Source of the DNA: Agaricicola taiwanensis
GTDB lineage: Bacteria > Pseudomonadota > Alphaproteobacteria > Rhizobiales > Methylopilaceae
Length of the DNA: 64,000 nt
Reading direction: 5' to 3'
NCBI RefSeq assembly: GCF_014635245.1
Contig: NZ_BMCP01000001.1
Location: 124,001 to 188,000, forward strand
Made by a program: the position numbers and the translations under genes. Below the pieces are notes generated by a model. It worked only from the letters and a program-made list of their open reading frames with translations. It made no database searches and was not told the DNA's origin. Of the stretch, positions 11,281 through 55,275 are shown piece by piece (positions within the stretch are counted from its first letter, which is position 1; the number at the start of each line of letters is the position of its first letter).

Positions 11281-11326
11281 GTGGCTATGACTTAAGCGGC
11301 AGGAACATGAGAGAGGACGAGGGCGC

Positions 11327-36876: not shown

Positions 36877-37956
36877 TCAGCTCAGGAGCCACTCGCTGAA
36901 GCGTACATCCGCTTTTGCCTTGTGCTCGCCCCAGAACGCATCATTCACTGCGACAGTCTTCGCCAGATTGTCCGGGAACGACGGCAAGGCGGGCGCTCGT
37001 TTCTCATCTATGAACTTGTAGGCGCCGGGGTTGGTCGGGCCGTTGCTCAATTCCTTGGTGTAGGCGGCCTGCCGGTCGGCCCTGGCGCAGAACTTGACGA
37101 ACTGGCGTGCAAGATCGGCCTTGGGCGCGCCCTTCGGGATGCACCAGCCCTCCACGCTGTAGAAGCCACCTTCCCAATCGATGGCCACCGGCACGCCGTT
37201 GTCGATGGCAGTCTGGGCCCGGGCGTTCGGCATGGGACAGATATCGACCTCCCCGGTCTGAATGATCTGGGTGCTCTGAGGCGCTGAATCCCACCAGACC
37301 TGAACCTGCGGCTTGATCTCGTCCAGCTTCTTGAAGGCCCGGTCCCAGCCCTCTGCCGTGGACAGAACCTTGTAGATATCATCACCCGGCGCAACGCCGT
37401 CGGCACGCAGGGCGACCTCGATGGAATCGCGTGCGAAACGGCGCATGCCGCGTCCGCCGGGCAGTTCCTTGTCCCAGAGGCTGGCGAAGGATTTGACGTT
37501 CTTCATCCGGTCGGACCGGTACGCCAGGATGAAGGTGTACAGGCCGTTGCCGACGAAGAACGGGGTTTTCATGTTGGCGGGGATGGCGGCGACATCGTCC
37601 CCACCGAGGTCGAGGTCCTCCACCAGATCGGACTTCTTCAGAAAGTCCGCGATGTCGGCGGAGATGCCTCCGCTGAGATCCCAATTGTAGCTCTTGGTTT
37701 CCACCTGCGCCTTGAACTCGGCGGCCGGATAGCCGCGCCGGGCGACCGATGTCACCGCGATGCCGGTTTCCTTCGTGAAAGGTTCGTAGAAGGCCTCCTT
37801 GAAGGCCGTGGTATAGGCACCGCCCGGATCTGCGCAGACCAAGGTCTGTGCAGCTTGGGACGGGCGCCACAGCCAGGGCAGAGCGACGCCGGCGGCACCG
37901 GCAGTCATGGCACCTTTGATGAGGGTGCGGCGAGATAGGTTCAACGTGTCACTCAT
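36877..37956 (-). CDS. ABC transporter substrate-binding protein (PotD/spermidine-putrescine-like)
   Basis: A 359-residue periplasmic binding protein with a twin-arginine-like signal peptide: SRRTLIKGAMTAGAAGVALP around residues 8-27, so export by Tat is likely. The mature protein fits the spermidine/putrescine/iron-type family 1 binding fold (YTTAFKEAFYEPFTKETGI, WWDSAPQSTQIIQTGEVDICP, GAYKFIDEKRAPALPSFPDNL). The first ATG at 37956 is preferred over TTG at 37971. It is last in the transcribed order of the operon: racemase-like, demethylase, oxidase, ATPase, permease, binding protein. Confidence 0.9.
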   Translation of the reverse strand: MSDTLNLSRRTLIKGAMTAGAAGVALPWLWRPSQAAQTLVCADPGGAYTTAFKEAFYEPFTKETGIAVTSVARRGYPAAEFKAQVETKSYNWDLSGGISADIADFLKKSDLVEDLDLGGDDVAAIPANMKTPFFVGNGLYTFILAYRSDRMKNVKSFASLWDKELPGGRGMRRFARDSIEVALRADGVAPGDDIYKVLSTAEGWDRAFKKLDEIKPQVQVWWDSAPQSTQIIQTGEVDICPMPNARAQTAIDNGVPVAIDWEGGFYSVEGWCIPKGAPKADLARQFVKFCARADRQAAYTKELSNGPTNPGAYKFIDEKRAPALPSFPDNLAKTVAVNDAFWGEHKAKADVRFSEWLLS

Positions 37957-37989
37957 GGTTCTGCGCTCCAACGGTTCCGGTATCAGGGC

Positions 37990-39807
37990 TTATCTTCGAC
38001 GGCTTCTGCGTCCGACGAACTCGGCAATCAGGATGATGGCGGCAACGAAAACGAGCATCAGCGTGGAGACCGCCGCCAGAGTAGGGCTGATGTTGAGAAG
38101 AGCTTCCGACCACATCTGCCGAGGCAGTGTCGTGGCGATGCCACCGCTTACGAAGAGGGCGATGGTCAACTCATCGAACGACCGGACAAAAGCGAACAGG
38201 AATGCGGTGATCAGGCCGGTGCGTATAAGCGGAAAGGTGATGTAGCGGAAGGTCCGGGCCTGGTCCGCGCCCAGCGTCCAGGCAGCCTGGTCGAGCCGCT
38301 GGTCGTAGTTCTTCAGCACGGCCATCACGGTGATGATGACGTAGGGCAGCGTGAAGACGGTATGGCCGATGACAAGACCGATATTGGTGCCGATCAGCCC
38401 GACATAGGAGTAGGCGTAGAACAGCGCCACGGCGACCACGATGTGCGGCAGGATGATGGGCGACAGGATGAAGGCGATGATCGCCGTCTTGCCCGCGATC
38501 TGCTGACGGGACAGGAAGAAGGCGGCGGGAGTGCCGAGAACGACCGACAACATGGCCGTGCTGAGCCCAACCCCGACAGAGCGAAGAGTGGCCTCCTGCC
38601 AAATGGCGGAGCTGAAATAGGCCTCGTACCACTGCAATGAGAATCCACGCGGCGGCCAGCCGAAGAAGCTGTTTTCCGAGAACGACAGCGGGATGACGAA
38701 GAAGGTCGGAACCGCAAGAAAGATGATCACGGCCAGACCGACCAGCCAACGTGCGGTCATGCGCTGGCCGCCGGGCCGATCGTATTTCGGCCGGAACAGC
38801 ATATGGAATCCATGGCCGATGCCCCAGCCGATCCAGCTGATCCCGGCGATGAACCGGCGGCCGATGTCGGAGCCCAGGCGCGAGAGAAGGCCGTCGCGTC
38901 CACGGCTCTTGCCGTAGCTGGCGCCACCGGTCAGTGCCGACATGCCAAGCACGCGGTCGAACAGATAGAAGATGCTGAAGGCGGCCACGAGAAGCATGAC
39001 CGATATGGCCCCGGCGAAGCCCCAGTTCAGCATTTCCTCGATCTGGATGATGATGAGCTGCGCCATCATCATTTCACGCGGGCTGCCAAGAAGCGTTGGC
39101 GTGATGAAGAACCCCATCGCGGTGATGAAGACCAGCAGGCCGGCTGCGGCGACGCCCGGCAGGGACAGCGGGAAATAGATGCGCCAGAACGAGTGGGAGG
39201 TGCCCGCGCCCAGCGTCGAGGCCGCCCTTGTCAGGTTGGGATTGATGCTCTGCATCACCGAGAGCATGGTCAGGATGGCGATCGGCAGCATGGCGTGCGA
39301 CATGCCGACCATGACGCCGAAGAAGTTGTACATCAGCTTCAGCGGCTGCTCGATGACCCCCAGCGAAGCCATCCACTGATTGAGGACGCCGTCGCGCCCC
39401 AGCAGCAGCATCCAGGCGAAGCTGCGCACCAGGAAACTGGTCCAGAACGGCACCATGACCCATATCAGCAAGCCGCTGCGGGAGGCCGGAGAGACGGACG
39501 CCAGGAGATAGGCGACCGGATAGCCCGCAACGATGCAGATCAGCGTGGTCCAGAGCGCGATACTGAAGGTGTTCTTGAGCACGTTGAAATAAAGCGTGGT
39601 GCTGAACAGGCGCTCGTAATGGTCAAGATTGATCTCGCCGCCGGCATCCACGATGCTGAGCCAGAGCAACTGGCTGACCGGTATCAGAAAGACGATCAGA
39701 AGGAAGATCGACGTCGGCAGCAGTGGCCACAGTCGCCGGAATTTAGCCGACCGCAGGCCGGAGTCCGCCCTGGCGGGAAGCGGCGCCCTGAGTGCGGTAT
39801 CACTCAT
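37990..39807 (-). CDS. ABC transporter permease, fusion of two permease domains
   Basis: A 605-residue protein that joins two MetI-type permease domains. Domain 1 (about 25-310; WPLLPTSIFLLIVFLIPVSQLLW at the start, TRAASTLGAGTSHSFWRIYFPL as the EAA-like loop) corresponds to PotB; after a ~60-residue linker, domain 2 (about 355-600; LDQAAWTLGADQARTFRYITFPL is its EAA loop) corresponds to PotC. In most polyamine-type systems these are two genes. It overlaps the ATPase gene by eight bases. Confidence 0.9.
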   Translation of the reverse strand: MSDTALRAPLPARADSGLRSAKFRRLWPLLPTSIFLLIVFLIPVSQLLWLSIVDAGGEINLDHYERLFSTTLYFNVLKNTFSIALWTTLICIVAGYPVAYLLASVSPASRSGLLIWVMVPFWTSFLVRSFAWMLLLGRDGVLNQWMASLGVIEQPLKLMYNFFGVMVGMSHAMLPIAILTMLSVMQSINPNLTRAASTLGAGTSHSFWRIYFPLSLPGVAAAGLLVFITAMGFFITPTLLGSPREMMMAQLIIIQIEEMLNWGFAGAISVMLLVAAFSIFYLFDRVLGMSALTGGASYGKSRGRDGLLSRLGSDIGRRFIAGISWIGWGIGHGFHMLFRPKYDRPGGQRMTARWLVGLAVIIFLAVPTFFVIPLSFSENSFFGWPPRGFSLQWYEAYFSSAIWQEATLRSVGVGLSTAMLSVVLGTPAAFFLSRQQIAGKTAIIAFILSPIILPHIVVAVALFYAYSYVGLIGTNIGLVIGHTVFTLPYVIITVMAVLKNYDQRLDQAAWTLGADQARTFRYITFPLIRTGLITAFLFAFVRSFDELTIALFVSGGIATTLPRQMWSEALLNISPTLAAVSTLMLVFVAAIILIAEFVGRRSRRR

Positions 39808-40900
39808 GGCCGACGCTCCGTCCGGGCAGCACCACGGTGCGGGCGGCAGGCCAGCCGATCCGTATGGTGTCGCCGCTGATGGCGCTGCGGGTTGGCGCGG
39901 TGGTCAGCTGCGTGAAGGTCACGTCGGTGCCGTCGGCCAGCTCGCCGAAATATTTGGTCACCGGACCGACCATGACGCTGTTCCGGACCCGCACTTCTGC
40001 CGCGTTCTCGGCATGTTCGTCCGACCGCAGAAGCGTGATGTGCTCGGGGCGCACCATGATCGACAGCTCATCGGTGCCACTGCGGCGCGGATCGTTCGTC
40101 CGCGGCGCGCGGATCATGCCGCCGCCAGGCCCCTCATAGGTATCGAAGTCGGTGTCCTGATCCTTGATTCTGACGGGAAACATGTTGGCGCCGCCCAGGA
40201 ACAGCGCGGTGAAGATGCTTTTGGGCTCGAAATACAGATCGTTGGGCGTGCCGATCTGCTCGATCTGGCCATCGTTCATCAGGCAGATGCGGTCCGACAT
40301 GGACATGGCCTCTTCCTGATCATGCGTGACGTAGAGGATCGTGGTCTTCAGCTCCTCGTGGAGCATCTTGATCTCGATCTGCATCTGGTCACGAAGCTTC
40401 TTGTCGAGCGCTCCCAGGGGCTCGTCCATGAGGACGATGGAGGGTTGGTACACGGTGCAGCGCGCCAGGGCGATGCGCTGCTGCTGCCCGCCCGACAGCT
40501 CACTGGGAAACCGTTCAGCCACATGCGGCAACCGCACGATCTCCAGGATCCGCTTCACCTTGCGGTCGATCTCGGCGGCGGGCATGCGGCGCATGCGCAG
40601 CGGAAAGGCGATGTTTTCGTAGATCGTCAGATGCGGGAACAGGGCATAGTTCTGGAACACCATGCCGATGTCACGCTGATGACTGGGCGCAAAAGTAGAC
40701 AGAACGCCGTCGATACGGATCTCTCCACCGTCCGGCAGCACCAGGCCAGCCAGTGTCATCAGCAGCGTTGTCTTGCCTGAGCCGGAGGGTCCGAGCAGCG
40801 TCAGGAACTCGCCTTCCGGCACCTCAAGCGACGTCTCCTTCAGGGCCATCACAGACCCATAGGACTTCCAAACGTTCTTGATGCTGAGTTTGCTTTTCAT
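39800..40900 (-). CDS. ABC transporter ATP-binding protein (PotA-like)
   Basis: A 366-residue ATPase with Walker A GPSGSGKTTLL (about residue 36), signature LSGGQQQRIALAR and Walker B IVLMDEPLGALD, followed by a C-terminal TOBE/OB domain (about 245-360) as in PotA. Its stop lies inside the start of the fused permease; its own start overlaps the stop of the oxidase gene (ATGA), so the genes are coupled. Confidence 0.93.
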   Translation of the reverse strand: MKSKLSIKNVWKSYGSVMALKETSLEVPEGEFLTLLGPSGSGKTTLLMTLAGLVLPDGGEIRIDGVLSTFAPSHQRDIGMVFQNYALFPHLTIYENIAFPLRMRRMPAAEIDRKVKRILEIVRLPHVAERFPSELSGGQQQRIALARCTVYQPSIVLMDEPLGALDKKLRDQMQIEIKMLHEELKTTILYVTHDQEEAMSMSDRICLMNDGQIEQIGTPNDLYFEPKSIFTALFLGGANMFPVRIKDQDTDFDTYEGPGGGMIRAPRTNDPRRSGTDELSIMVRPEHITLLRSDEHAENAAEVRVRNSVMVGPVTKYFGELADGTDVTFTQLTTAPTRSAISGDTIRIGWPAARTVVLPGRSVGHE

Positions 40901-42447
40901 GACAGAGCCAGTCCTTCGGCTTCGCCCTTGGGGGCGGCTATGGTTGTGTGCGGCGCGGCGCTCCAGCCCGGGCCGTGCAGGTGATGCGCCTGCGCCAGGA
41001 AGCTCGCGATCTCATCATCGCGGCCGCTATCCTCCCAGCTGAGATCGTCCATCAGCTGATGCAGCACCGCCCTCTGCGCCTCCGGTGCAAGCCCGGCCTC
41101 CCAGCCGACCCCGGCGCGCCGGAAGGCGGCGTCGTAAAGCGTCACGGCATGCTCGCGCGGCCGGGATGTGCCCGGCGCACTGTCGTGCGAGGCATATGAC
41201 GATGGGCGCGCCGGACCTGAGGCAGGAATCCTGCCTGCCACGATCCGCGCCATGTCGCGGCCGCCCGATCGGTGGTTCATGACGGAGCCCATGGTCATGG
41301 CGAAGACGCCGGGGAGGCCGTCGGCCGCCAGGTCATGGATGTCGCGCGACCGTTTGCCGAAGGGCATCATCGGGTCGTAGGTCAGCGGGCGCACGCCGGA
41401 CCAGGTGAACACGACATCCGATGCCTTTATCCCGGCACCTGGCAGCATGAGATTTGCCTCACGCACGAGCCAGCCGATATCTTCCGGCGTGGTATGAATG
41501 TCGTCCAGATCGCCTTCGTAGAGGGTTTCAGTCGGGCCGAAGTAATGATAGCCGCGCCAAGGCACACAGTAGAACGGCTCGTTCTTGCTGTTGATGATGG
41601 CAAGCCCGTAGTCGCGGCACTCCTCGGGCAATTTGACCACGATGTGGGCGCCCTTCGTGCCAAGAATCCTGCGGCTGGCCGCCGGTGCGGCCTCGCGGTT
41701 GATCTGATCGATCCAGATACCGCCCATGTTGAGGACGATCTTGCCGGTAACCGTGACCTCCTCGCTGTCGACCAGCATATCCGACAGGCCCACGGTCCAG
41801 GCCTCGCCAGTGCGAGTGAGCAGCCGCGCGGAGGTGTAATTTCGCACGGTGGCGCCAAGGCGCTCGGCGTCCATGACGTTGTCGATGCAGAGGCGCTCCG
41901 GCCAGTCCATCTGGTATTCACGGAAGAGCGCCACGGCTTCCAGACTGCCGTAATGATCACCGAGCCAACGGATCAGCGGCAATTCCTTCGCCCGTTCCGC
42001 CGACACGCGTCTGTAATCGAGCGGAGGGTTTGCGGGGCCAAGGCGCTTCAGCACCGCGAAGGCGGCATCGAGATGCCAACCGCGATAAAGACCGCCCTTG
42101 TAGATCGGGAAGGCGAAGTTCATGGCCCGCGTACGAGCAGGAGAGGTCTCGACGAGTTCGGCGCGCGCCTGCATGGCAAGGCGCGCCATCCGCAGTGCAA
42201 TGGCGAGACGCTTTGGGTGCCGCACAAAATCCATAAGCGAGCGTCCCGGCGCCAGATAGCGCAGCCCGCAGTGCAGAAGCCGACTGGAGCGGCTGGTGGA
42301 GCCGGAGGCAAAGTCGCCCTTGTCCACCAGCAGCACGGTGTAGCCGGCAGCGGCCAGATGCTGGGCCGCGCTGGAACCGTTGATGCCGCCACCGATCACG
42401 ACAACATCATAGGTCTTGCCCTGCAATGAGGTGATGGGCGCGCGCAT
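40897..42447 (-). CDS. FAD-dependent oxidase/dehydrogenase of the GlpD family
   Basis: A 516-residue FAD protein. The Rossmann motif VVVIGGGINGSSAAQHLAAAGY (about residue 14-35) is followed by the GlpD signature DKGDFASGSTSRSSRLLHCGLRYL (about 44-68). Family members oxidise glycerol 3-phosphate or similar hydroxy compounds; the operon context (PotABCD-type transporter and a demethylase) suggests another substrate. ATG at 42447 has AGAGGAG six bases upstream; the ATG at 42453 would sit on that site. It starts 12 bases after the demethylase stop (reverse strand). Confidence 0.85.
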   Translation of the reverse strand: MRAPITSLQGKTYDVVVIGGGINGSSAAQHLAAAGYTVLLVDKGDFASGSTSRSSRLLHCGLRYLAPGRSLMDFVRHPKRLAIALRMARLAMQARAELVETSPARTRAMNFAFPIYKGGLYRGWHLDAAFAVLKRLGPANPPLDYRRVSAERAKELPLIRWLGDHYGSLEAVALFREYQMDWPERLCIDNVMDAERLGATVRNYTSARLLTRTGEAWTVGLSDMLVDSEEVTVTGKIVLNMGGIWIDQINREAAPAASRRILGTKGAHIVVKLPEECRDYGLAIINSKNEPFYCVPWRGYHYFGPTETLYEGDLDDIHTTPEDIGWLVREANLMLPGAGIKASDVVFTWSGVRPLTYDPMMPFGKRSRDIHDLAADGLPGVFAMTMGSVMNHRSGGRDMARIVAGRIPASGPARPSSYASHDSAPGTSRPREHAVTLYDAAFRRAGVGWEAGLAPEAQRAVLHQLMDDLSWEDSGRDDEIASFLAQAHHLHGPGWSAAPHTTIAAPKGEAEGLALS

Positions 42448-42459
42448 CGGCATCTCCTC

Positions 42460-44574
42460 TCAGAGCGCCCGGGCGACGCGCATGGCGTCGAGCACCGCGG
42501 AGTGGATGTTGCGGCTGGCGACGGCATCGCCGATGCGGTGGAGCTCGAAGCGGCCGGGGTTGTCTTGCCGCCTCTGAGCCTGGCCGGCCAGCAGCGCCGC
42601 GATATCGGTGACGCCGTCGTTGGTCGAGATTGAGGTCAGCGACTTGAACACCTCGTCCATGGGAACCGTCCCATGTTCCACCACCACCTGATCGGTGATC
42701 ACGGTCTCGGTTTCCAGCGTCACGTCATTGAGGAAAAGCGCGGCCAGCTTGTTGCCCTCGCGCCGCACCTCGACAAGGCGGCGGTCGAAGAAGGGACGGA
42801 TGCCCAAGCTGTAGAACTGCTTTTTCCAGGTGACGCGCTCGGCGTAAGTCAGCTCAACGGCCAGATAGCCGTCGATGGAGAAATAGTCGACGCGGCGGCC
42901 ATCGGCAGCGACCTTCTCGGCCACCTGCGGACCGGGATGACGGCCCGTGCCGTCGAACACCACGACATGCTCACGCGCGGTCGCGCTCCCATCCAGAATG
43001 TCCCAGGCGCTGGTGCAAAGCTCCGCGCCGACGATCCAGTCGAGGTCGGGGACGCCGCCAGTTGCGATGATCACGGCATCGGGCTCTTCGGCCAGCACAT
43101 CGTCCATTTCGGCATAGAGATTGGTGCGGCAGTCGACCTTCAGGCGTTCCAGCTGAGCGACCCGCCAATCGATGATGCCGCGCAAATCGCGCCGCCAGGA
43201 ATGGCGGCTGCCGATCAACACCTGGCCGCCCAGTTCGGCAGCCGCCTCGAACAAGACGACCTTGTGGCCGCGCTCGGCCGCAACACGTGCCGCTTCCAGT
43301 CCGGCCGGACCGCCGCCGACGACAACCACCTTCCGGCCGGGCGCGGTCGCGCGGGCGATGGTGTGGGACATTTCGGTCTCGCGTCCGGTGACCGCATTGT
43401 GGAGGCATTTCGGACGATAGCCGGACATGCAGTGGCTGGCGCCGACACAGGGACGGATTTGGTCTTCCTCGCCCGCCAAGATCTTCTTGACGATATGCGG
43501 ATCTGCGATATGGGCTCGCGTCATGCCGGCCATGTCGAGATGGCCCTGGCCCACGGCATGGCGGGCCGAAGCGACATCGGCCATGCGGGCGGCGTGGAAC
43601 ACCGGCACGCCCACCTCGCGCTTGAAGGCGCCGACCGCCGCGACCCAGGGCGCCAGGGGCGTGCCCATGGAGGGCATATTGTCCCGGGCCAGCGCAAGCT
43701 CGGTATCCATCTTGCCATAGATGGCGTTGAAGAAATCGAGGTCGCCCTCGCTCTGGAGGATCTGCGCGGTGGCGATACATTCCTCCAGGGTAAGGCCGCC
43801 GGTCGGCCCCTCATCCACCACGAAACGCATGCCGACGATGAAGTCGTCTCCCACCTGGCGGCGGATTTCCTGGTGCACCATGATTGGAAAGCGGCAGCGA
43901 TTTTCCAGCGATCCGCCGAAACGATCGGTGCGTCGGTTGGTCAGCGGCGAAAGGAACTGGCCGATGAGGTGTCCGCCCGCCAGCGTCTCGATCCCGTCGA
44001 GGCCACCCTCCTTGCAGCGCAGAGCCGCCGCACCGTAGGCCTTCACGACCCGCGCGATGTCATGCTCATCCATTTCCTTGGGGAAGCTGCGGTGCAGGGT
44101 TTCGCGGATGGCCGATGGCCCGATGGTGGGCAGCCAGTCTCCGCCATAGGGATCGCCGCGACGGCCGAGGTGAGTGATCTGGCACATCAGCGCGGCGCCC
44201 TGCGCGTGTATTCGCTCGGAGAATCGCTGAAGATGCGGAATGATGCCGTCGTCACCGACGTTGAGCTGGCGGAAGATGTTGGGCGAATCCCGATCGACGT
44301 TGGACGATCCGCCGAACATGGTCAGCGCTATGCCGCCCCGCGCCTTCTCCTCATGATAGGCCTGATAGCGGTCGGTGGGGTAACCGCCCTCCTCCAGTCC
44401 GCAGGCGTGGCTGGTGCTCATGAAGCGATTGCGCAGCCGCAACCGCTTGATGGTCAGCGGCCGGAGCAGTGGATCCCGGGACAGACTTTCAACTTCTGAT
44501 GTGTTCTGCTCGGCTAACGCGGTATCGGACACGGGGGACGCACCTTCTGTTTCGGACTGGTCGGACGGAGGCAC
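42460..44574 (-). CDS. old-yellow-enzyme/TMADH-type FMN-FAD-FeS dehydrogenase (amine demethylase-like)
   Basis: A 704-residue multidomain enzyme. Residues about 35-370 are a TIM barrel of the old-yellow-enzyme type (QITHLGRRG, LSPLTNRRTDRFGGSLENR, MAGMTRAHIADPH), about 375-395 is the iron-sulphur segment (C376, C382, C390), and about 412-700 is an FAD/NAD-type domain (VVVVGGGPAGLEAARVAAERG). This is the layout of trimethylamine dehydrogenase and of N-methylproline (stachydrine-type) demethylases. The canonical second cysteine is Ala379. GTG at 44574 is the annotated start, low certainty; GTG at 44532 is possible. A substrate with an N-methyl group is inferred, not shown. Confidence 0.85.
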   Translation of the reverse strand: MPPSDQSETEGASPVSDTALAEQNTSEVESLSRDPLLRPLTIKRLRLRNRFMSTSHACGLEEGGYPTDRYQAYHEEKARGGIALTMFGGSSNVDRDSPNIFRQLNVGDDGIIPHLQRFSERIHAQGAALMCQITHLGRRGDPYGGDWLPTIGPSAIRETLHRSFPKEMDEHDIARVVKAYGAAALRCKEGGLDGIETLAGGHLIGQFLSPLTNRRTDRFGGSLENRCRFPIMVHQEIRRQVGDDFIVGMRFVVDEGPTGGLTLEECIATAQILQSEGDLDFFNAIYGKMDTELALARDNMPSMGTPLAPWVAAVGAFKREVGVPVFHAARMADVASARHAVGQGHLDMAGMTRAHIADPHIVKKILAGEEDQIRPCVGASHCMSGYRPKCLHNAVTGRETEMSHTIARATAPGRKVVVVGGGPAGLEAARVAAERGHKVVLFEAAAELGGQVLIGSRHSWRRDLRGIIDWRVAQLERLKVDCRTNLYAEMDDVLAEEPDAVIIATGGVPDLDWIVGAELCTSAWDILDGSATAREHVVVFDGTGRHPGPQVAEKVAADGRRVDYFSIDGYLAVELTYAERVTWKKQFYSLGIRPFFDRRLVEVRREGNKLAALFLNDVTLETETVITDQVVVEHGTVPMDEVFKSLTSISTNDGVTDIAALLAGQAQRRQDNPGRFELHRIGDAVASRNIHSAVLDAMRVARAL

Positions 44575-44583
44575 TGCGGGGCG

Positions 44584-45591
44584 TCAGGTCAGAAGGAAAC
44601 CGGCGCCGACGGGATCACTGGGGTCGAGCAGCCATTTGGCATAGCCGTAGATGTTGGCGGCTCCCTTCACCGTTGACTGGAGCACGCGTTGCCCGCCCAA
44701 CGTCTCCTCGCCCAGAAGTTCGCCCTCGAAGACACCACCCAATGGGCCTTCAGCGAGAATTTTGCCGCCCGTTCGCAGCGTGCCCTGACGTTCCAGCAGC
44801 GCCACCATGGCGCTGACGCCCGTGCCGCCGGGCGAGCGGCCGGCCTGGCCATCACCGAAAATGTGGATGTTGCGATAGGTGGCATCGGCGCGGTCAGGCT
44901 CGTGATGAAACGTCACGATGTCGATCCAGTCGATGTGGGCGTGCACCGGATGCTTGACCTTGATCTTCTCGTTCAGCTGCTTCTTGACCGAAGCCCCGAT
45001 GCGGCGAAACAGATGGACGTTCTGCGGCTCGATCTTGGCGATCGAGCGATCCCACTTCACATGGCCGAAGAAGTTGCCGCCGAAGAGGATGTCGGCCGTT
45101 CCCTGGCCAAATTCGCCCAGATCAACCGGCACGTCCAATTCCTGGACGAAGGCGGGAACATTGTGGAAGCGGCAGGACACCACCTCGTTGCCGGCGCTTT
45201 CGACCTCCGCGGTGATGGGGCCGACCGTTGTTTCCAGCCGAACGGTCGTGAGCGGCGGCGTGGCCTTGACCCAGCCGTTGGCCACCATCGCCATTGCCAG
45301 GCCGATGGTGCCGTGACCACACATGTTCATGAAGCGGTCATTGTCCATCCAGATCACGCCGCCGTCGAAGCCGGGCTCGGATGGAGGCGTCAGGAACACG
45401 CCATACATGTCCTTGTGGCCGCGGGGCTCCAGCATGATGGCGCGGCGCAGCCATTCGAAGTTCTGCTCGATGAAGCGGCGCTTCTCGAGGATTGAGGATC
45501 CGGCAGGATAGGTGATGCCGCTGTGGATGATGCAGGTCGGCGCGCCTTCCGTGTGCGTGTAGCAGACATCGACGAAATTATTGATACGCAT
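44584..45591 (-). CDS. proline racemase-fold protein with atypical active site
   Basis: A 335-residue protein of the proline racemase/hydroxyproline epimerase fold. The N-terminal half has the first catalytic motif MCGHGTIG with C91. The second half has GRSPGGTGVSA at the place where racemases have DRSPCGTGxSA: both the aspartate (here Gly251) and the second cysteine (here Gly255) are lost. Loss of the second base argues against racemisation. trans-3-hydroxyproline dehydratases also lack it (usually Thr), so a dehydratase or isomerase is possible. ATG at 45591 is chosen; the upstream frame is unconserved. It is first in the operon and divergent from a GntR gene. Confidence 0.85.
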   Translation of the reverse strand: MRINNFVDVCYTHTEGAPTCIIHSGITYPAGSSILEKRRFIEQNFEWLRRAIMLEPRGHKDMYGVFLTPPSEPGFDGGVIWMDNDRFMNMCGHGTIGLAMAMVANGWVKATPPLTTVRLETTVGPITAEVESAGNEVVSCRFHNVPAFVQELDVPVDLGEFGQGTADILFGGNFFGHVKWDRSIAKIEPQNVHLFRRIGASVKKQLNEKIKVKHPVHAHIDWIDIVTFHHEPDRADATYRNIHIFGDGQAGRSPGGTGVSAMVALLERQGTLRTGGKILAEGPLGGVFEGELLGEETLGGQRVLQSTVKGAANIYGYAKWLLDPSDPVGAGFLLT

Positions 45592-45742
45592 GCGCGAAAT
45601 CCCCGTTTCAAGACACCGGTCGGGGCAGACCATCCCGAGAGCTTGCGCTCGCGGCACAGCATCAGTCGCCACCGGGTGAAACGGCGACGGCATCAATCCC
45701 CTCATAATAAAGGCTTTTTTGCCACACTGGGCCGCCCTTTAT

Positions 45743-45764
45743 ATGCATACGCAAACGTATACAT
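45743..45764. promoter_or_regulatory. palindromic operator candidate 1 (GntR)
   Basis: ATGCATAC (45743-45750) and GTATACAT (45757-45764) are inverted repeats with one mismatch and a six-base spacer. The half-site matches operator 2. Confidence 0.5.
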
Positions 45765-45867: not shown

Positions 45868-45879
45868 TATGTATACATA
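45868..45879. promoter_or_regulatory. palindromic operator candidate 2 (GntR)
   Basis: TATGTATACATA is a perfect 12-base palindrome, 42 bases upstream of the GntR start at 45922. GTATAC cores are usual for FadR-subfamily GntR regulators. Confidence 0.6.
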
Positions 45880-45921
45880 TGAGCGGGCTTGGTGTTCCGC
45901 AGATGCGCAGGATCTAACGCG

Positions 45922-46563
45922 ATGTCAGAAACGATAGAATTCACACGCGGCGAGCTCGTGTATGAGGATCTCAAGAAGCGGATCATTTCGCTGAAGATCG
46001 AGCCGGGAACGCCCCTGCAGGAAGCCGAGATCACGAAGGCCTACGACGCGAGCCGCACACCTGTCCGCGAGGCGCTGGCGCGGCTCAGTCATGAAGGTTT
46101 TCTGGTTCGGTGGGGGCGTGGCTACCGTATACGCAGCTTTTCCCCCCTGGAGGTCAAGGAGCTTTATGAAGTCCGCGAAGCGCTTGAAAAGATGGCGGTT
46201 CGCCTGACCATCGAGACGTCGTCGCCGGAGAAGATCAAGACCATCGAGACGCAGCTGGAGCACTATCAATCATTCATCGAGAGCAACGACATCAACGCTT
46301 TCAACCTGCACGCCAACTCGTTCCACATGACCATCGCCCAGCTGTCGGGCAATCAGAACCTGCTTGAGCAGTTGACCACGATCCACGAGAAAGTGCGCCT
46401 TATCAGTGCTCGTTATCTCCTTCGCTCCGAAAGTATACAAAACGCCTTTCTGGAACACTCGCGCATTTACAACGCGATTCTGAGGGGCGATGTCGTGGTC
46501 GCTGAAGCTGCGATGCGCGAGCATATTCAGGAGGTCATTGAGTTCTTTCGGGCTCAGGCCTGA
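45922..46563 (+). CDS. GntR-family (FadR/FCD) transcriptional regulator
   Basis: A 213-residue regulator with an N-terminal winged helix (about 10-72; GTPLQEAEITKAYDASRTPVREALARLSHEGFLV) and a C-terminal FCD helical domain (about 80-205; FNLHANSFHMTIAQLSGN supplies the conserved metal/ligand histidines). ATG at 45922 is used; an earlier ATG/GTG would add unconserved residues. It is divergent from the racemase-like gene and most likely regulates that six-gene operon through the palindromes in between. Confidence 0.9.
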   Translation: MSETIEFTRGELVYEDLKKRIISLKIEPGTPLQEAEITKAYDASRTPVREALARLSHEGFLVRWGRGYRIRSFSPLEVKELYEVREALEKMAVRLTIETSSPEKIKTIETQLEHYQSFIESNDINAFNLHANSFHMTIAQLSGNQNLLEQLTTIHEKVRLISARYLLRSESIQNAFLEHSRIYNAILRGDVVVAEAAMREHIQEVIEFFRAQA

Positions 46564-48613: not shown

Positions 48614-49321
48614 TCAGCTCCCGGCGGACCGCTTCCATGTCTCGTATTCTACATATTGCAGGCCCGCTTTCGCCAACCCGTCGCGCATGTTGTAAAGATC
48701 AAGACCGAGTGTGCCGGATGCCAACTTCCGGCGCTTTTCGTCCTCATTGGCCACCCGCTTGTCGGCGGCTTCGGTGACCCATTCGGCATCATGCCGGGGC
48801 ACGACAACGACACCGTCATCATCCGCGATGATGGCATCGCCCGGATTGACGAGAGCACCGGCGCATACGACCGGCACATTGACCGAACCGAGCGTCGCCT
48901 TGACCGTACCCTTGGCGTTCACGGCCCGCGACCAGACCGGGAACCCCGCCTGGGTCAGTTCCTGCACGTCCCGGCAACCGGCATCGATGATGAGGGCACG
49001 CCCACCCTGCGCCATCAGCGACGTCGCCAGCAATTCACCGAACATCCCATCCTTGTTGTCGGTGGTGACGCCGACCACCAGGACATCCCCCGGCTTGCAC
49101 TGCTCGATGGCGACATGGATCATCCAGTTGTCGCCCGGCTGCGCCAGCACCGTCACCGCGGATCCCGCAATGCGGGCGCCGGGATAGATCGGGCGCATAT
49201 AGGGCTTCATCAGACCGAGCCGGCCGTAGGCTTCGTGGACGGTGGCAACGCCATGTTTGCCAAGACGCTCGGTCAGTTCAGGTGCAACACGCGGCGGATT
49301 GACGACAACGACGGGCTTCAT
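48614..49321 (-). CDS. galC: 4-carboxy-4-hydroxy-2-oxoadipate aldolase (GalC/LigK, RraA fold)
   Basis: A 235-residue RraA-fold metal-dependent aldolase. Family motifs: [12 protein letters not shown], the metal/pyruvate site [36 protein letters not shown] with the conserved G-E-L-L-A and D-x-G-x-R-D, and [19 protein letters not shown]. GalC/LigK cleaves 4-carboxy-4-hydroxy-2-oxoadipate to pyruvate and oxaloacetate and decarboxylates oxaloacetate. The specific call rests on the neighbours galB and galD. ATG at 49321 overlaps the galB stop (ATGA); the longer frame upstream is antisense-like and rejected. Confidence 0.88.
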
Positions 49322-50040
49322 GCCAGTTCCTCCAGAACCATGGGAAACAGCCGCTGATAAGCCTCGCCATAGGTCATGGCCTTGCCGGAGTTGCGGCCGC
49401 CCTGCATGCCGCGCTGCAAGGCGACGCGGGTGTAATATTCCCAAAGGTGTTTTTGTGCTGCCAGGACCTGGAAGGCCTCGTACTTCTGCTCCCAGACCTC
49501 GTCGATGTTGAGGATGACATTCGGCTTGAAATTGCACATTTCAGGCTGATGCGGCTCGAACAGGAACACCGGAGGAGCATTGTAGCTGTAGTCACCGCCG
49601 GGTTTGTGGCCCATGGCCTGCGCGATGATGCGCGCCTCCTGGGCAAAGCGGGTCGCCTCCGGATGATCGACATTGTAGGGGTCCTCGAGCGAATGCGTGA
49701 GGACGAAGGAGGGATTGAGCTCGCGATAGATGTCGATCAGCCGGTCCAGCATCTCTGGTGTAACCCGCAGCGGATAGTCGCCGGCATCGAAGGATTCGAT
49801 CTCCGCGCCGAGGACGGCCGCCGCCTTTTCCGCTTCGCCGCGCCGCGCCGCCTTCACCTCTTCCAGCGTCTGGCCTCCCTTCTTCCAGGCGAACTGGCTC
49901 TCGCCACGCTCGCCGAAGGACAGGCAGACGATCTTGATGCGGTAGCCGCGCTTCGCGTGCAGGGCGATGGCGCCTCCCGCCCGCCAGACGAAATCACCGG
50001 GATGAGCCGTAACGACGAGGCCCGTCTTCTGCGTTGTCAT
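49318..50040 (-). CDS. galB: 4-oxalomesaconate hydratase GalB (PIG-L fold)
   Basis: A 240-residue PIG-L/LmbE-fold metal-dependent enzyme. The metal motif [17 protein letters not shown] replaces the usual AHPDDE, as in Gal[39 protein letters not shown] and [28 protein letters not shown] follow the GalB pattern as I remember it from Pseudomonas putida. The enzyme hydrates 4-oxalomesaconate to 4-carboxy-4-hydroxy-2-oxoadipate. It lies between galD and galC. Confidence 0.88.
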
Positions 50041-50082
50041 TGTGCCTTCTCCTTGTGTGGCGCCCGCATGGCTTGTTGGTGA

Positions 50083-51165
50083 TCAGGAAAATGCGCTCTC
50101 GGGCACGAGCACGGCGCCATCCATGAGCGCGCGGGCCGTGCGCAGCAGACCGGCCCGTGCAATGACCGGCTGATCTGGCGTGCCCTCCACTTCGAGCCGC
50201 ACCGTGAATTCGCCGGTGGGATGTTCCACCGACATGGTCTTCACGGCGCCTTCGGGAATCCGCGCAACGTCATGGGCTGGCGAGCCCGGCAGGACGCAGG
50301 CCGTTGCGACCGATACGGCGGCGAAGACGCCAATGGAGCTGTGGCATTCATGGGGGATGAAACTGCGCGTGGCGATGCTGCCACCCGCCGCCGGAGGAGC
50401 AACCAGGGTCATCTTGGGCACGACCTTATTGGTGACATCACCGAGATTCATCATGGGGCCGACCTTGAGGCGCACCGCCTCGATGCGGGTTCGCATCTCC
50501 TGATCCGCCATGAGTTCGGCGGGACTCTCATAGCCGGTCTTGCCGAAGGAGGACGCCTTCATCAGCACCACCGGCATGCCGTTGTCGATGCAGGTGAGCG
50601 GGATACCATCGACCACATCGACGGCGCGGCCGGTCGGGAGCAGCGCACCGCAGACCGAGCCCTCGGCATCGAGGAAGTTGATGGGAATCGGCGCCGAGGT
50701 CCCCGGCACGCCATCGATGCGGGCATCGCCCTGATAGTTGACGCGACCTCCCGGCGTCTCGATCTGCAGTTCCGCGATGGTGCCGGTATTGAGGGTGCGC
50801 ACCGTCACCATCGTGACGTCGCCGGCCGGCACGACCAGACCGCGCTCGATGGCGAAGGGGCCGACACCCGCGAGGATGTTGCCGCAATTGGGGGTGGTAT
50901 CGACCTTGGCCTCCTTGACCGAGACCTGGGCGAACAGAAAATCGATGTCGATCCCCGGCTCCTCCGAGCGAGAGACGATCGCAACCTTGCTGGTGAGGGG
51001 ATGTGAGCCGCCCATGCCATCGATCTGCCGAGGATCGGGCGATCCCATGGCTGCCAGCAGGACGGCATCGCGGCCGGCGGGATCGGACGGTATGTCGGTG
51101 GCAAGGAAATAGGCGCCCTTGGACGTTCCGCCACGCATGATCAGGCAAGGGATGGCACGTTGCAT
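50083..51165 (-). CDS. galD: 4-oxalomesaconate tautomerase GalD (PrpF family)
   Basis: A 360-residue protein of the PrpF/GalD isomerase fold: IPCLIMRGGTSKGAYFLATD at the start, AMGSPDPRQIDGMGGSHPLTSKVAIV, NCGNILAGVGPFAIERGLV with a catalytic cysteine, CIDNGMPVVLM, and SFIPHECHSSIGVFAAVSVATACV. It tautomerises 4-oxalomesaconate, the step before GalB. ATG at 51165 has GAGGAG seven bases upstream and is preferred over TTG at 51180. It follows the ABC ATPase gene by 11 bases. Confidence 0.9.
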   Translation of the reverse strand: MQRAIPCLIMRGGTSKGAYFLATDIPSDPAGRDAVLLAAMGSPDPRQIDGMGGSHPLTSKVAIVSRSEEPGIDIDFLFAQVSVKEAKVDTTPNCGNILAGVGPFAIERGLVVPAGDVTMVTVRTLNTGTIAELQIETPGGRVNYQGDARIDGVPGTSAPIPINFLDAEGSVCGALLPTGRAVDVVDGIPLTCIDNGMPVVLMKASSFGKTGYESPAELMADQEMRTRIEAVRLKVGPMMNLGDVTNKVVPKMTLVAPPAAGGSIATRSFIPHECHSSIGVFAAVSVATACVLPGSPAHDVARIPEGAVKTMSVEHPTGEFTVRLEVEGTPDQPVIARAGLLRTARALMDGAVLVPESAFS

Positions 51166-51176
51166 GTCTGCGCTCC

Positions 51177-51920
51177 TCAATGGGCGATGATCTTGGAAAG
51201 GAAGGCGCGGGCCCGCTCCGTGTCCGGGGCTTCGAAGAACTGAGCGCTTGGCCTGTCCTCGACGATGCGCCCTTCGTCCATGAAAACGACCCGGCTGGCG
51301 ACCCGCCGGGCAAAACCCATCTCGTGCGTGACCACCACCATGGTCATGCCCTCGCGCGCCAGCGAGACCATGACGTCGAGCACTTCATTGATCATCTCGG
51401 GGTCGAGCGCTGACGTCGGTTCGTCGAACAGCATGGCGATCGGGTCGAGCGCCAGCGCGCGAGCTATGGCCACACGCTGCTGCTGCCCGCCCGAGAGATT
51501 GGCGGGATAGGCATGGGCACGCTCGCTCAGCCCCACCTTCGCCAACAGTTCCAGACTGCGCGCCCGCGCCTCTTCGCTTGAGCGCTTCAGCACATGGGTC
51601 TGCGCCAGCATGACATTCTTCAGGGCGGTCATGTGCGGATAAAGCTCGAAGCTCTGGAACACCATGCCGATGCGGGCCCGCACCGCCGGCAGATCCGTCG
51701 AGCGGGCGCCAACCACCTTGCCCTCGAACATGATGGTGCCCGACTGGTAGGGCTCCAGCCCGTTGATCGTCTTGATCAGCGTGCTCTTGCCTGATCCGGA
51801 GGGACCACACACCACAACGATCTCGCCGGGCGCGACCTTGAGCGAGCAATCCCGCAGGACCGGGTTGGCGCCATAGCTCTTTGACACATGATCGAGTGAA
51901 ATAAGGGGAAGGGAGTTCAT
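51177..51920 (-). CDS. amino-acid ABC transporter ATP-binding protein (GlnQ/HisP family)
   Basis: A 247-residue ATPase with Walker A GPSGSGKSTLIKTING, Q-loop MVFQSFELYPHMTALKNVMLA (typical for polar amino-acid importers), signature LSGGQQQRVAIARAL and Walker B MLFDEPTSALDPEM, and the switch H in VTHEM. Length and order fit the GlnQ type. It is part of the TetR-aminotransferase-importer-galDBC operon. Confidence 0.95.
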   Translation of the reverse strand: MNSLPLISLDHVSKSYGANPVLRDCSLKVAPGEIVVVCGPSGSGKSTLIKTINGLEPYQSGTIMFEGKVVGARSTDLPAVRARIGMVFQSFELYPHMTALKNVMLAQTHVLKRSSEEARARSLELLAKVGLSERAHAYPANLSGGQQQRVAIARALALDPIAMLFDEPTSALDPEMINEVLDVMVSLAREGMTMVVVTHEMGFARRVASRVVFMDEGRIVEDRPSAQFFEAPDTERARAFLSKIIAH

Positions 51921-51932
51921 GGAGGATCGCTT

Positions 51933-52583
51933 TCAGCTTCGGATGGCGAGCCGCGCGTAAAGCAGGCGCCCGACGAAGGAGAGGAGAGAGCAGACGACGA
52001 GATAGGTCAGCGCCACACAGCCCAGAATGATGACGGGCTGGAAGTCGCGGGCGTTCACCAGAAGGGCGCTGCCGGTCAGTTCCCGCACACCGATGACGGA
52101 AGCGACCGACGTGAATTTGAGCAGCCGCACATACTGGCTGAACAGCGGCGGAATGGCGCGGCGAATGGCCTGGGGCAGCACGATCAGACGAAACACCTGA
52201 CCCGGCCGCAGACCCGTGGCCAGACCGGCTTGGGTCAGTCCCGGCCGCACGGCGCGCAGCCCGCTGCGGAACTCCTCGGCGAGATAGGAGGCAATGAAAA
52301 GGGAGAAGCCGAGGCTGGCCGCGGCGAATGCCGTGGTGCGGTAGCTGAACAGGGCCGGCAGTGCGAAGAAGCAGATCAGGAGCATCACCAGGAGCGGAAT
52401 GCCGCGCACCGTCTCGATATAGAGCGCGGCAAGCGCCCCCAGCACCGGCACCCGCCGATAGCGCAGGATCGCCAGGACGAGACCAAGGATGGTCCCGCCC
52501 AGGATGCCGATCACAGCCAGCAGCAGCGTCATGCGCAGCCCTTCAAGGAGGAAGGGCATATTGGCGAGGATGACGTCAAACAT
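51933..52583 (-). CDS. amino-acid ABC transporter permease (HisM/GlnP family)
   Basis: A 216-residue permease with five helices. The EAA loop is EEFRSGLRAVRPGLTQAGLATGLRPGQVFRLIVLPQAIRRAIPPLFSQY, typical for HisMQ-type subunits. It overlaps the other permease by eight bases, as usual for paired HisM/HisQ genes. Confidence 0.95.
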   Translation of the reverse strand: MFDVILANMPFLLEGLRMTLLLAVIGILGGTILGLVLAILRYRRVPVLGALAALYIETVRGIPLLVMLLICFFALPALFSYRTTAFAAASLGFSLFIASYLAEEFRSGLRAVRPGLTQAGLATGLRPGQVFRLIVLPQAIRRAIPPLFSQYVRLLKFTSVASVIGVRELTGSALLVNARDFQPVIILGCVALTYLVVCSLLSFVGRLLYARLAIRS

Positions 52584-53253
52584 CGGACACCTTGGCGACG
52601 GCAGGAGGCTCGCGCAGGCCGGGAATGCTCATGAGACCACGGGTGACCAGGGTGACCAGCGCCAGATAGAGCAGTGCGATGGTGATGTAGACTTCGAAGG
52701 TCCGGAACGTTTGTCCTTCGATGGAGCCGGCCTGATAGGTCAGCTCGGCCACCGCGATAACGGAAGCGAGTGACGAGTCCTTGATGAGCTGAGACGACAG
52801 GCTGGCAAGGGACGGTGCGATGTTGCGCAGGGCCTGCGGGTAGATCACCAGCAGGCGAACCTGCCACGGCCTTAGCCCGGAGGCCTCGGCCGCCTGCGTT
52901 TGCCCGCGGGAGATGCCGCCGATCCCGGCGCGGACGACCTCGGCCACATAGGCGCTCGAATAGAACGTCAGGCCAAGAACCGCGCAGAGGAATGGCGGCA
53001 ACCGCAGGAAAGCGAGCGCCATGTACCAGAAGTACATGTGGATCAGGAGCGGGACGTTCCGCATGCATTCGACGAAGACCCCGGCCACCAGCCTGCCCGC
53101 GCGGGAGCGGGACGCGCCCAGTGTTCCCACGATCAGCCCGAGGCAGAGCGCCAGGACCAGCCCCGCGAGAGACAGCAGGATGGTGGTCAGCAGCCCGTCA
53201 GCGATGAGCTGACGGTTCTGCCATATGGGAGTCCAGTCGAACTGATAGGACAT
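52576..53253 (-). CDS. amino-acid ABC transporter permease (HisQ/GlnP family)
   Basis: A 225-residue permease. Its EAA loop reads EVVRAGIGGISRGQTQAAEASGLRPWQVRLLVIYPQALRNIAPSLASLSSQLIKDSSL. It forms a heterodimer with the overlapping permease to its 3' side. The binding-protein gene lies 29 bases upstream. Confidence 0.95.
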   Translation of the reverse strand: MSYQFDWTPIWQNRQLIADGLLTTILLSLAGLVLALCLGLIVGTLGASRSRAGRLVAGVFVECMRNVPLLIHMYFWYMALAFLRLPPFLCAVLGLTFYSSAYVAEVVRAGIGGISRGQTQAAEASGLRPWQVRLLVIYPQALRNIAPSLASLSSQLIKDSSLASVIAVAELTYQAGSIEGQTFRTFEVYITIALLYLALVTLVTRGLMSIPGLREPPAVAKVSDV

Positions 53254-53282
53254 GATCCGCTCTTCGATGTCGGGCTATGGGA

Positions 53283-54089
53283 TCAGGGCCAGATCTCAAG
53301 GGGAACGCGGGGCTCCTCGCCGAACCACTTGGCGTAGAGCTTCTGATATTCGCCCGACTTCCACAGGTCCTGCAGCGTCTCGTTGATGATGTCGCGCAGG
53401 GCAGAGTCACCCTGCCGGACACCGATGCCGAACGGCTCGGAGCTGAAGATGTCCCCGACGATCTGGTAATCCTTGTTCTCCTTGGCGAAGCCTTGGAGGA
53501 TGTTCAGGCTGCCGGTCAATGCATCGGCACGGCCCTGCACGAGGGCGAGCCAGGCACTGTTGTAGTCCTTGAAACCCACGAGCTTGGCCTCGGGAGCAGC
53601 GGCGGCAATGTTCTTCTCCAGCGTCGTGCCCTGCTGTACGGCCACCTGTTTGCCGGCCAGGCTGTCGACGCCCGTGATGTCGCTACCGGCCTTGACGATC
53701 AAGGCTTGTCCGCCGGTGTAGTAGGTGATCGAGAAATCGATGGTGCGGTCACGCTCGATGGTATGCGTCATGGATGCCGCCACCACATCGACATTGCCGC
53801 TGACCAGCATGGGAATGCGGGTCGGCGAGGTGACGCTGACGAATTCCACGGGCACACCGATCTTCTCGGCAACCTTGGTGAGCAGATCGAGATCGAAGCC
53901 GGTGGGCTTGTTCCCCTCGCCCAGGAAGCCGAACGGCGGCGTGTCGAATTTGACACCCGCGAGCAGTTTGCCGCGGCTCTTGATCTCTTCGACCGAATTT
54001 GGCGACTGCGCCATCGTCACCGCCGGCGCCATCACGCCGGCAATGATCAGACTGGACAGACCCACGAAAAGCAGTTTGCGCATGTTCAT
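53283..54089 (-). CDS. family-3 amino-acid-binding protein (ABC transporter)
   Basis: A 268-residue periplasmic binding protein: signal peptide about 1-26, then LLAGVKFDTPPFGFLGEGNKPTGFDLDLLTKVAEKIG, the SBP-3 core for polar amino acids; DVVAASMTHTIERDRTIDFSITYY and AGKQVAVQQGTTLEK are typical. Ligand specificity is not readable. Its start overlaps the aminotransferase stop. Being family 3, it argues that the operon imports an amino-acid-like compound. Confidence 0.94.
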   Translation of the reverse strand: MNMRKLLFVGLSSLIIAGVMAPAVTMAQSPNSVEEIKSRGKLLAGVKFDTPPFGFLGEGNKPTGFDLDLLTKVAEKIGVPVEFVSVTSPTRIPMLVSGNVDVVAASMTHTIERDRTIDFSITYYTGGQALIVKAGSDITGVDSLAGKQVAVQQGTTLEKNIAAAAPEAKLVGFKDYNSAWLALVQGRADALTGSLNILQGFAKENKDYQIVGDIFSSEPFGIGVRQGDSALRDIINETLQDLWKSGEYQKLYAKWFGEEPRVPLEIWP

Positions 54090-55273: not shown

Positions 55274-55275
55274 GG

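Follow-up and report, generated by a model that had tools for sequence, protein, structure and literature searches.

A Cys/Gly protein of the proline racemase superfamily encoded in a predicted catabolic operon of Agaricicola taiwanensis

In the window (the whole stretch of A. taiwanensis DNA that we analyzed, 64,000 nucleotides in length), the gene at 44584 to 45591 on the minus strand encodes a proline-racemase-superfamily protein in which glycine stands in place of both the second catalytic cysteine and the conserved aspartate. By its residue pattern, the Cys/Gly clade to which this protein belongs does not fit the published types of the superfamily, and one lineage within it has also lost the nitrogen-binding residue. 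Judged from its sequence and gene neighborhood, the protein is very probably a working, single-thiol member of this clade, encoded in a catabolic operon. Our best explanation as a whole, namely, a diverged superfamily member that is encoded by the first gene of a catabolic import operon and acts through single-thiol chemistry, is put forward tentatively, as a reading a little short of an even chance.

The open reading frame specifies 335 amino acids plus a stop codon; an alternative, longer in-frame start lies at 45705. The protein scored 297.9 bits against Pfam PF05544 (gathering cut-off, 27), and this score, together with the fold of its AlphaFold2 model (pLDDT, 88.7; pTM, 0.89), places it in the superfamily. 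The nearest solved folds are those of the T. cruzi proline racemase and the Thermococcus T3LHyp dehydratase, with Z scores of about 45 over 331 residues (T. cruzi enzyme, 45.4; 6r76, 45.2); the proline racemase 7pb3 gave 43.5. All six matching NCBIfam models scored the protein far below their cut-offs. It reached 296.7 of 556 bits for the proline racemase equivalog NF010576, a model for which three Firmicute Cys/Cys proteins (L199, L200, and L201) gave 604.2, 532.6, and 489.9 bits, respectively. The scores were 226.6 of 376, 163.1 of 450, and 119.5 of 442 bits for the 4-hydroxyproline 2-epimerase equivalogs and 273.4 of 540 and 168.5 of 550 bits for two further models. The first motif, MNMCGHGTIG, is intact, with Cys91 (codon at 45319 to 45321, minus strand) as the sole remaining catalytic cysteine and with His93 kept. 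The second motif reads GQAGRSPGGTGVSA, with a GRSPGGTG core; Gly251 (codon GGC at 44839 to 44841) occupies the place of Asp, and Gly255 (codon GGC at 44827 to 44829) occupies the place at which racemases have the second catalytic Cys and dehydratases have Thr (codon positions were computed from the ORF start at 45591). The placement of the gene, the intact MCGHGTIG, and both glycines are as given in the original prediction, with the same numbering. Proline racemases have two catalytic cysteines (MCGH plus DRSPCG); with Gly at 255 in place of the second, the classical two-Cys pair cannot work here. The Cys/Gly pair likewise differs from the Cys/Cys or Ser/Cys pair of the 4-hydroxyproline 2-epimerases.

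A homolog in the metagenome-assembled genome (MAG) of an uncultured Chelatococcus (L001) is 83% identical to the window protein and carries an identical GQAGRSPGGTGVSA. The recurrence of this motif in another organism's MAG, at this level of identity and in the same operon, makes the alternative of a sequencing error, which the original prediction had raised against itself, very unlikely. Six genes stand there in the order of the window operon, together with a divergent GntR gene; the identities are 73 to 83% for the operon genes and 74% for GntR. Between the two organisms, the racemase-like gene had a dN/dS of 0.118, below that of each of the other five genes of the operon (0.140 to 0.179), these values being rough at a synonymous divergence of 0.8 to 1.1. 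The racemase-like gene is not decaying, and the gene and its operon are under purifying selection.

A published classification lists the types Cys-Cys, Cys-Thr, Ser-Cys, and Ser-Thr (PMC4364671), in agreement with the earlier statement that racemases need Cys and known dehydratases carry Thr at the second position. Some superfamily clusters without one or both cysteines are mentioned in a survey that tested 51 proteins of 12 families (PMC4113996). One Cys/Cys epimerase that has been studied depends on both of its thiols, since its hydroxyproline epimerization is abolished by C88S and by C236S; the Cys-Thr and Ser-Cys proteins tested in the same work had neither racemase nor epimerase activity, and three Cys-Cys proteins were also inactive (PMC1964878). 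Later work described Ser-Cys proteins as epimerases and Cys-Thr or Ser-Thr proteins as dehydratases (PMC4113996), and the change from Cys to Thr accompanies dehydratase activity (PMC8142540). Most superfamily members have been summed up as carrying out only three known reactions (PMC5445326). In the open-licence literature, outside which most subscription journals lie, we came across no account of the Cys/Gly type; for proline racemase, "Cys-Gly" was found there only as part of the motif Met-Cys-Gly-His. Literature on hydroxyproline betaine together with an epimerase and a demethylase was likewise not found within the open-licence range. We know of no other superfamily enzyme in which both the second catalytic residue and the nitrogen clamp are missing.

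To place the variant within the family, a census of 171 distinct sequences was compiled (1 from the window, 12 from genome-contig loci, 25 from relatives and plasmids, and 133 from a Pfam search over 385 genomes of the class). The family matched in 95 of these 385 genomes, and the 133 rows, drawn from among the matches listed, consisted of 33 from 30 loci and 100 that were fetched. Written as first Cys, His, Asp, and second Cys, the types were CHDC (73 rows), CHDT (32), SSDC (31), SSDT (13), CHDG (13), and CHGG (3), plus six types with a single row each. The CHGG rows were the window protein, its duplicate copy L013, and the Chelatococcus protein, and every other row had Asp at position 251. 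Gly at the second-Cys position was found in 17 of the 171 rows: these 3, 13 DRSPGG proteins that belong to their clade, and L033, which is unrelated. Based on these counts by residue pattern, Gly at this position is a separate residue type of the family. The rarity claimed in the original prediction therefore held in part: loss of the aspartate is rare (the window and Chelatococcus proteins), while Gly for Cys is the mark of a conserved 15-member clade, 13 members of which keep Asp. As for L033 (relative G040, contig C1082), it is a protein of the hydroxyproline epimerase clade that has an independent Gly at the second Cys and in which Ala replaces the conserved His (CADG). It was considered as a second origin of the Gly and set aside: it sits among the Cys/Cys epimerases without the conserved His and is a separate, perhaps degenerate case.

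Close relatives of the window protein are scarce, with matches at an E value of ≤1e-65 in 5 of the 385 class genomes (A. taiwanensis included). The A. taiwanensis genome itself has two family members, both of the Cys/Gly type and 52% identical to each other. Matches were obtained in 551 plasmid records, and 14 of the 40 listed were at 49 to 52% identity. The census includes five plasmid loci (L014 to L018), the protein of the last of which is also carried by L019; these six loci, taken from among the 14, are all DRSPGG. Where they are annotated at all, the plasmid clade members are called "proline racemase family protein."

The Cys/Gly clade is alphaproteobacterial and comprises 15 sequences, namely, 13 DRSPGG proteins (one of them the second copy of A. 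taiwanensis), the window protein, and the Chelatococcus protein. Gly at the second Cys, His243, Met262, and placement in a single clade mark its members, and the window protein has all of these. The support for the clade was 98 (SH-aLRT) in a tree of 170 rows, 100/98 in one of 66 rows, and 99/93 in one of 58 rows to which proline racemases had been added; within it, the window and Chelatococcus proteins paired with a support of 100. All 15 Cys/Gly rows were kept in the two smaller trees, alongside random samples of 16 CHDT, 14 SS, and 20 CHDC rows (four of the CHDC rows hand-picked) in the 66-row tree and of 14 CHDT, 10 SS, and 12 CHDC rows in the 58-row tree. Both omitted L137, L163, L172, L178, and L182 (flagged as long), and the 58-row tree also omitted L033. 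In trees without a true proline racemase, the Cys/Thr dehydratases appeared as the sister group of the Cys/Gly clade (support of 84 in 170 rows and 96/86 in 66). Once the three Firmicute Cys/Cys proteins were added, proline racemase became the sister (100/97, 58 rows), and both groups together were sister to the Cys/Thr group (99/97); the argument for a dehydratase ancestry was therefore dropped. L199 scored 735.7 bits against the solved AsProR and passes the proline racemase cut-off; L200 and L201 lie somewhat below this cut-off, and both adjoin a gene for component B of glycine/sarcosine/betaine reductase. With proline racemase as the sister group, a proline-racemase-like ancestor likely lost Cys255, with Asp251 being lost later in one lineage.

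The racemase-like gene stands first in an operon whose genes are spaced by −8 to +18 bases and whose products are, in order, the racemase-like protein, an OYE flavoprotein, a GlpD-like oxidoreductase, a PotA-type ATPase, a fused PotBC permease, and a binding protein (all on the minus strand). This order and the Pfam matches bear out the earlier operon description, in which a GlpD-like oxidase and a demethylase (here, a demethylase-like flavoprotein) accompany the gene. The flavoprotein (42460 to 44574; 704 amino acids; PF00724) has OYE/FMN and Rossmann parts, is of the N-methylproline demethylase kind, and is 57% identical to L055, annotated as N-methylproline demethylase, and 53% identical to a Paracoccus homolog. 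It is 62 to 69% identical to its nearest OYE relatives in other alphaproteobacteria and 63 to 66% identical to OYEs on five other plasmids; some of the 62 to 69% relatives adjoin a GlpD-like oxidase. In the literature, the N-methylproline demethylase gene of S. meliloti is named stcD (PMC12239276). An Ala at the iron-sulfur Cys site of the flavoprotein was considered as a special feature and discarded, being common to all nine rows compared, the window included. Trimethylamine dehydrogenase has the iron-sulfur Cys at this site. The GlpD-like FAD-dependent oxidoreductase (40897 to 42453; 518 amino acids) is of the DAO family (PF01266, 158.2 bits), and glycerol-3-phosphate dehydrogenase models scored it far under their cut-offs. 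The ATPase (39800 to 40900; PF00005 and TOBE_2) reached 346.7 bits for TIGR01187 (cut-off, 355.6). In the permease (37990 to 39807; 605 amino acids; two PF00528 matches), a PotB-like and a PotC-like half, each matched by its own model, are fused; a permease with the same fusion is present in the Chelatococcus MAG, at 79% identity. Opine-type proteins are the nearest named solved relatives of the substrate-binding protein (36877 to 37971) in a phmmer search against the PDB: the agropine permease 6hly (E = 1.3e-42) and MotA 5l9g (E = 5.1e-38), with the unnamed entries 4i1d and 3rpw falling between and after them and polyamine, mannopine, and GABA-sensor proteins ranking lower. No gene of the operon was recognized as a pyrroline-2-carboxylate reductase.

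Such an OYE (E ≤ 1e-230) was present in 7 class genomes (A. taiwanensis included), and in at least 4 of them a GlpD-like homolog (E ≤ 1e-90) lay within 10 kb on the same contig, a lower bound given that two or three candidates were scored per genome. Relatives of the window protein were found in none of 17 OYE or GlpD-like neighborhoods (L049 to L056 and L190 to L198; tblastn, E ≤ 1e-3), and the OYE/GlpD pair is thus a module that mostly works without a racemase-like gene. In Methylobacterium nodulans, an OYE and GlpD-like cluster holds a "mandelate racemase family" gene; it was rejected as an enolase-superfamily racemase stand-in, as the models that fit it best are those of sugar-acid dehydratases, and it reaches the cut-off of none of them. 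On a Microvirga plasmid (L056, 32778 to 38019), a GlpD-like oxidase (34% identity) and an OYE-type gene adjoin two genes that score below cut-off, one fructoselysine-deglycase-like and one fructoselysine-3-epimerase-like, a hint that an oxidase/OYE pair of this sort may serve Amadori or opine-like compounds.

A GntR/FCD regulator gene (45889 to 46563, plus strand; PF00392 and PF07729) diverges from the operon and has its 74% identical counterpart at the same place in the Chelatococcus MAG. Two matches to WYGTATACRW, which we predict to be operators, lie between it and the racemase-like gene: ACGTATACAT at 45755 to 45764 and ATGTATACAT at 45869 to 45878, the latter within TATGTATACATA. The pattern occurs at only five places in the 3.76-Mb genome, and the reversed control pattern occurs at 12; WYGTATACRW is thus not frequent in itself, and it clusters at the operon. 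Of the remaining three places, two are within mechanically called ORFs and one coincides with the start of a further GntR/FCD gene, and no further pathway gene was recognized by the genome search. In the corresponding intergenic interval of the Chelatococcus MAG, GTATAC occurs twice, at 7714 and at 7838; TATGTATACATA was not found in L001 at up to two mismatches, and the pair of GTATAC cores alone is common to both. The demethylase-like flavoprotein, the GlpD-like oxidase, the opine/polyamine-type importer, and the divergent GntR gene with its predicted operator pair point to catabolism of an imported amino-acid derivative, and the arrangement looks like a local, substrate-induced operon. Elsewhere in the window, at 48614 to 51180 (minus strand), genes of the lower pathway of 4-oxalomesaconate were seen, with an aldolase (TIGR02798) and a tautomerase (NF033377), both over cut-off, and a PIG-L-type protein; they adjoin ORFs that by eye resemble ABC transporter and aminotransferase genes (51177 to 55279). 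The 4-oxalomesaconate tautomerase is of the PrpF family, which also matches the proline racemase fold.

Other members of the Cys/Gly clade are found in different contexts. In Bosea, Azospirillum, Shinella, and Ensifer (L014 to L019), a GlxA-type regulator and an ABC importer accompany the gene, and the paralog of A. taiwanensis likewise lies downstream of importer genes. A TRAP importer with a GlxA-type regulator was seen at L036 and TctA/TctC with an FMN hydroxyacid dehydrogenase at L037. A CoA-transferase of family III, AtuA, and an alpha/beta hydrolase were seen at L038, L046 (by Pfam), and L047 (by sequence resemblance), with ABC-type genes some kilobases distant at the latter two. L048 has an acyl-CoA dehydrogenase and L045 a DAO-family oxidoreductase. 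Transport genes were present at 11 of the 14 Cys/Gly loci and were not seen at L038, L045, and L048, the genes of which were classified in part. From these neighborhoods, substrates probably differ across the clade. On the 3′ side of the second Cys/Gly gene of A. taiwanensis (L035, contig C6), the gene at 11238 to 12577 belongs to the guanitoxin-type heme N-hydroxylase family GntA (250.6 bits; cut-off, 145), and its product adjoins a urea-amidolyase-associated-type protein (below cut-off).

The loss of Cys255 was accompanied by further changes. Compared with proline racemase, all 15 Cys/Gly members show Val243 to His, Cys255 to Gly, Arg/Lys262 to Met, Ser282 to Gly, and Glu227 to Thr, and 14 of 15 show Arg20 to Cys; Cys91 and His93 are kept throughout the clade. 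Such concerted changes look like redesign rather than decay. The co-varying residues do not count as independent events, since the clade has one shared ancestor, and the sole independent Gly, in L033, lends the covariation no support because it comes without His243 and with the conserved His93 also lost. Among clade members, only the window and Chelatococcus proteins carry Gly instead of Asp251, Ala instead of Glu17, Tyr instead of Phe63, and Ser instead of Pro306. In superfamily members of solved structure, the prolyl nitrogen is coordinated by Asp together with His (PMC4113996). If Glu17 lies in the pocket, as we presume, its loss together with Asp251 would be in keeping with a substrate that lacks the usual ammonium. 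We propose that Cys91 takes the alpha-proton from an imported amino-acid derivative whose nitrogen, being N-substituted or not an ammonium, would escape the usual clamp. With the opposite face devoid of a thiol, the product would form by single-thiol chemistry, either by beta-elimination, as in the Cys/Thr dehydratases, or by a 1,3-proton shift, which occurs in other enzymes of the proline racemase fold. Its further conversion would fall to the GlpD-like oxidase and the demethylase-like flavoprotein, in one order or the other. For the substrates suggested in the original prediction (proline, N-methylproline, and hydroxyproline betaine), the data speak neither for nor against: the importer's binding protein resembles opine and polyamine/GABA-type proteins, and Ile225 takes the place of a pocket His found in 66 of 73 rows of CHDC, the hydroxyproline epimerase type. 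That the enzyme is a lyase or isomerase rather than a racemase is, by our sequence comparisons, an evenly poised proposition. Departure from Cys-Cys does not by itself forbid racemization, as Ser-Cys proteins epimerize (PMC4113996), and the analogy to dehydratases is weakened by proline racemase being the sister of the Cys/Gly clade.

The strongest rival, owing to the invariance of His243 and to the proline racemase sister group, is a Cys/His racemase or epimerase in which Cys91 would be paired with His243 (codon at 44863 to 44865) as a candidate replacement acid/base, or with a His-bound water in the space left at Gly255. His243 occurs in 15 of 15 Cys/Gly members and in none of 155 other rows, which have Val, Cys, Thr, Ile, or Asn. 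It lies two residues from Phe245 on the same predicted strand (239 to 245 in the AlphaFold2 model). Counted from the DRSP motif, in our own mapping, position 245 corresponds to the substrate-contacting site 5 of PMC4364671 and to Phe290 of the T. cruzi proline racemase, the R3 position (PMC1964878). By strand alternation, the side chains of His243 and Phe245 should both face the pocket. Of the two proline-specific positions, 63 is Phe in 13/13 DRSPGG members and 245 is Phe in 12/13, and the Ser-Cys epimerases show that pairs other than Cys/Cys exist (PMC4113996). However, the window protein has the dehydratase-like Tyr63 instead of Phe, and racemization of ordinary amino acids would leave the loss of Asp251 and Glu17 unexplained. 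We regard this reading as rather unlikely for the window protein.

A dehydratase of the trans-3-hydroxyproline type with Gly for Thr, the residue differing and the reaction unchanged, is improbable. It would share the single thiol of the Cys/Thr dehydratases, and Tyr63 is found in the window and Chelatococcus proteins as in all 32 CHDT rows; the authors of the structure of the human dehydratase, moreover, infer that its activity persists with Cys104 in a disulfide (PMC9309405). However, the protein falls outside the Cys/Thr clade once proline racemases are in the tree. At pocket site 4, it has Ile225 (Gly in 32/32 CHDT rows; His in 66/73 CHDC rows), at position 83 it has Asp instead of the His of the CHDT rows, and its operon lacks a recognized pyrroline-2-carboxylate reductase. 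A catalytically dead binding or regulatory protein, as might be supposed from the absence of two residues that define catalysis and substrate binding, is very improbable given the sequence constraint, with Cys91 and His93 in 15/15 clade members and the lowest dN/dS of the operon.

Going beyond single-thiol chemistry as such, the window/Chelatococcus lineage might carry out a new reaction, deprotonating an imported compound that is N-alkylated, betaine-like, or opine-like, either by a single thiol or by this thiol and His243 together; Asp251 and Glu17 would then be dispensable, as the substrate would have no free ammonium. We consider this possible, with clear reservations. Compact, under selection, and equipped with an importer and a regulator of its own, the operon should put substrate and reaction within reach of ordinary means. 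Both outcomes would be instructive: one would be a new reaction, and the other, a Cys/His racemase, would show a rebuilt two-base mechanism.

Among known systems, proline racemase (ProR, EC 5.1.1.4, Acetoanaerobium type), the sister clade, resembles the window protein in fold, first Cys motif, and Phe at R3 (Phe245). Unlike ProR, the window protein has Gly for both the second Cys and the Asp, His for Val243, Met for Arg/Lys262, and Tyr63 for the R1 Phe, and its gene lies in an ABC import operon, whereas the proline-racemase-like genes of L200 and L201 adjoin a reductase component. The Cys/Thr dehydratases share its single thiol, Tyr63, and fold (6r76; Z, 45.2) but form a separate clade, with Thr where it has Gly, with the Asp that it has lost, and with other pocket residues; no pyrroline-2-carboxylate reductase partner was recognized here. 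With the 4-hydroxyproline 2-epimerases (Cys/Cys and Ser/Cys), it has superfamily and fold in common; it differs from them in the missing second Cys, in Ile225 for the site-4 His, and in its clade. The OYE flavoprotein of the operon resembles the N-methylproline demethylase-like flavoproteins (57% to L055 and 53% to Paracoccus) and has an equal Cys pattern from residue 374, but it is nearer to other OYE-type proteins (62 to 69%) than to the N-methylproline demethylase record (57%). The binding protein is similar, distantly, to those of opine-type ABC importers (agropine permease and MotA), and the permease halves of the operon are fused in one chain.
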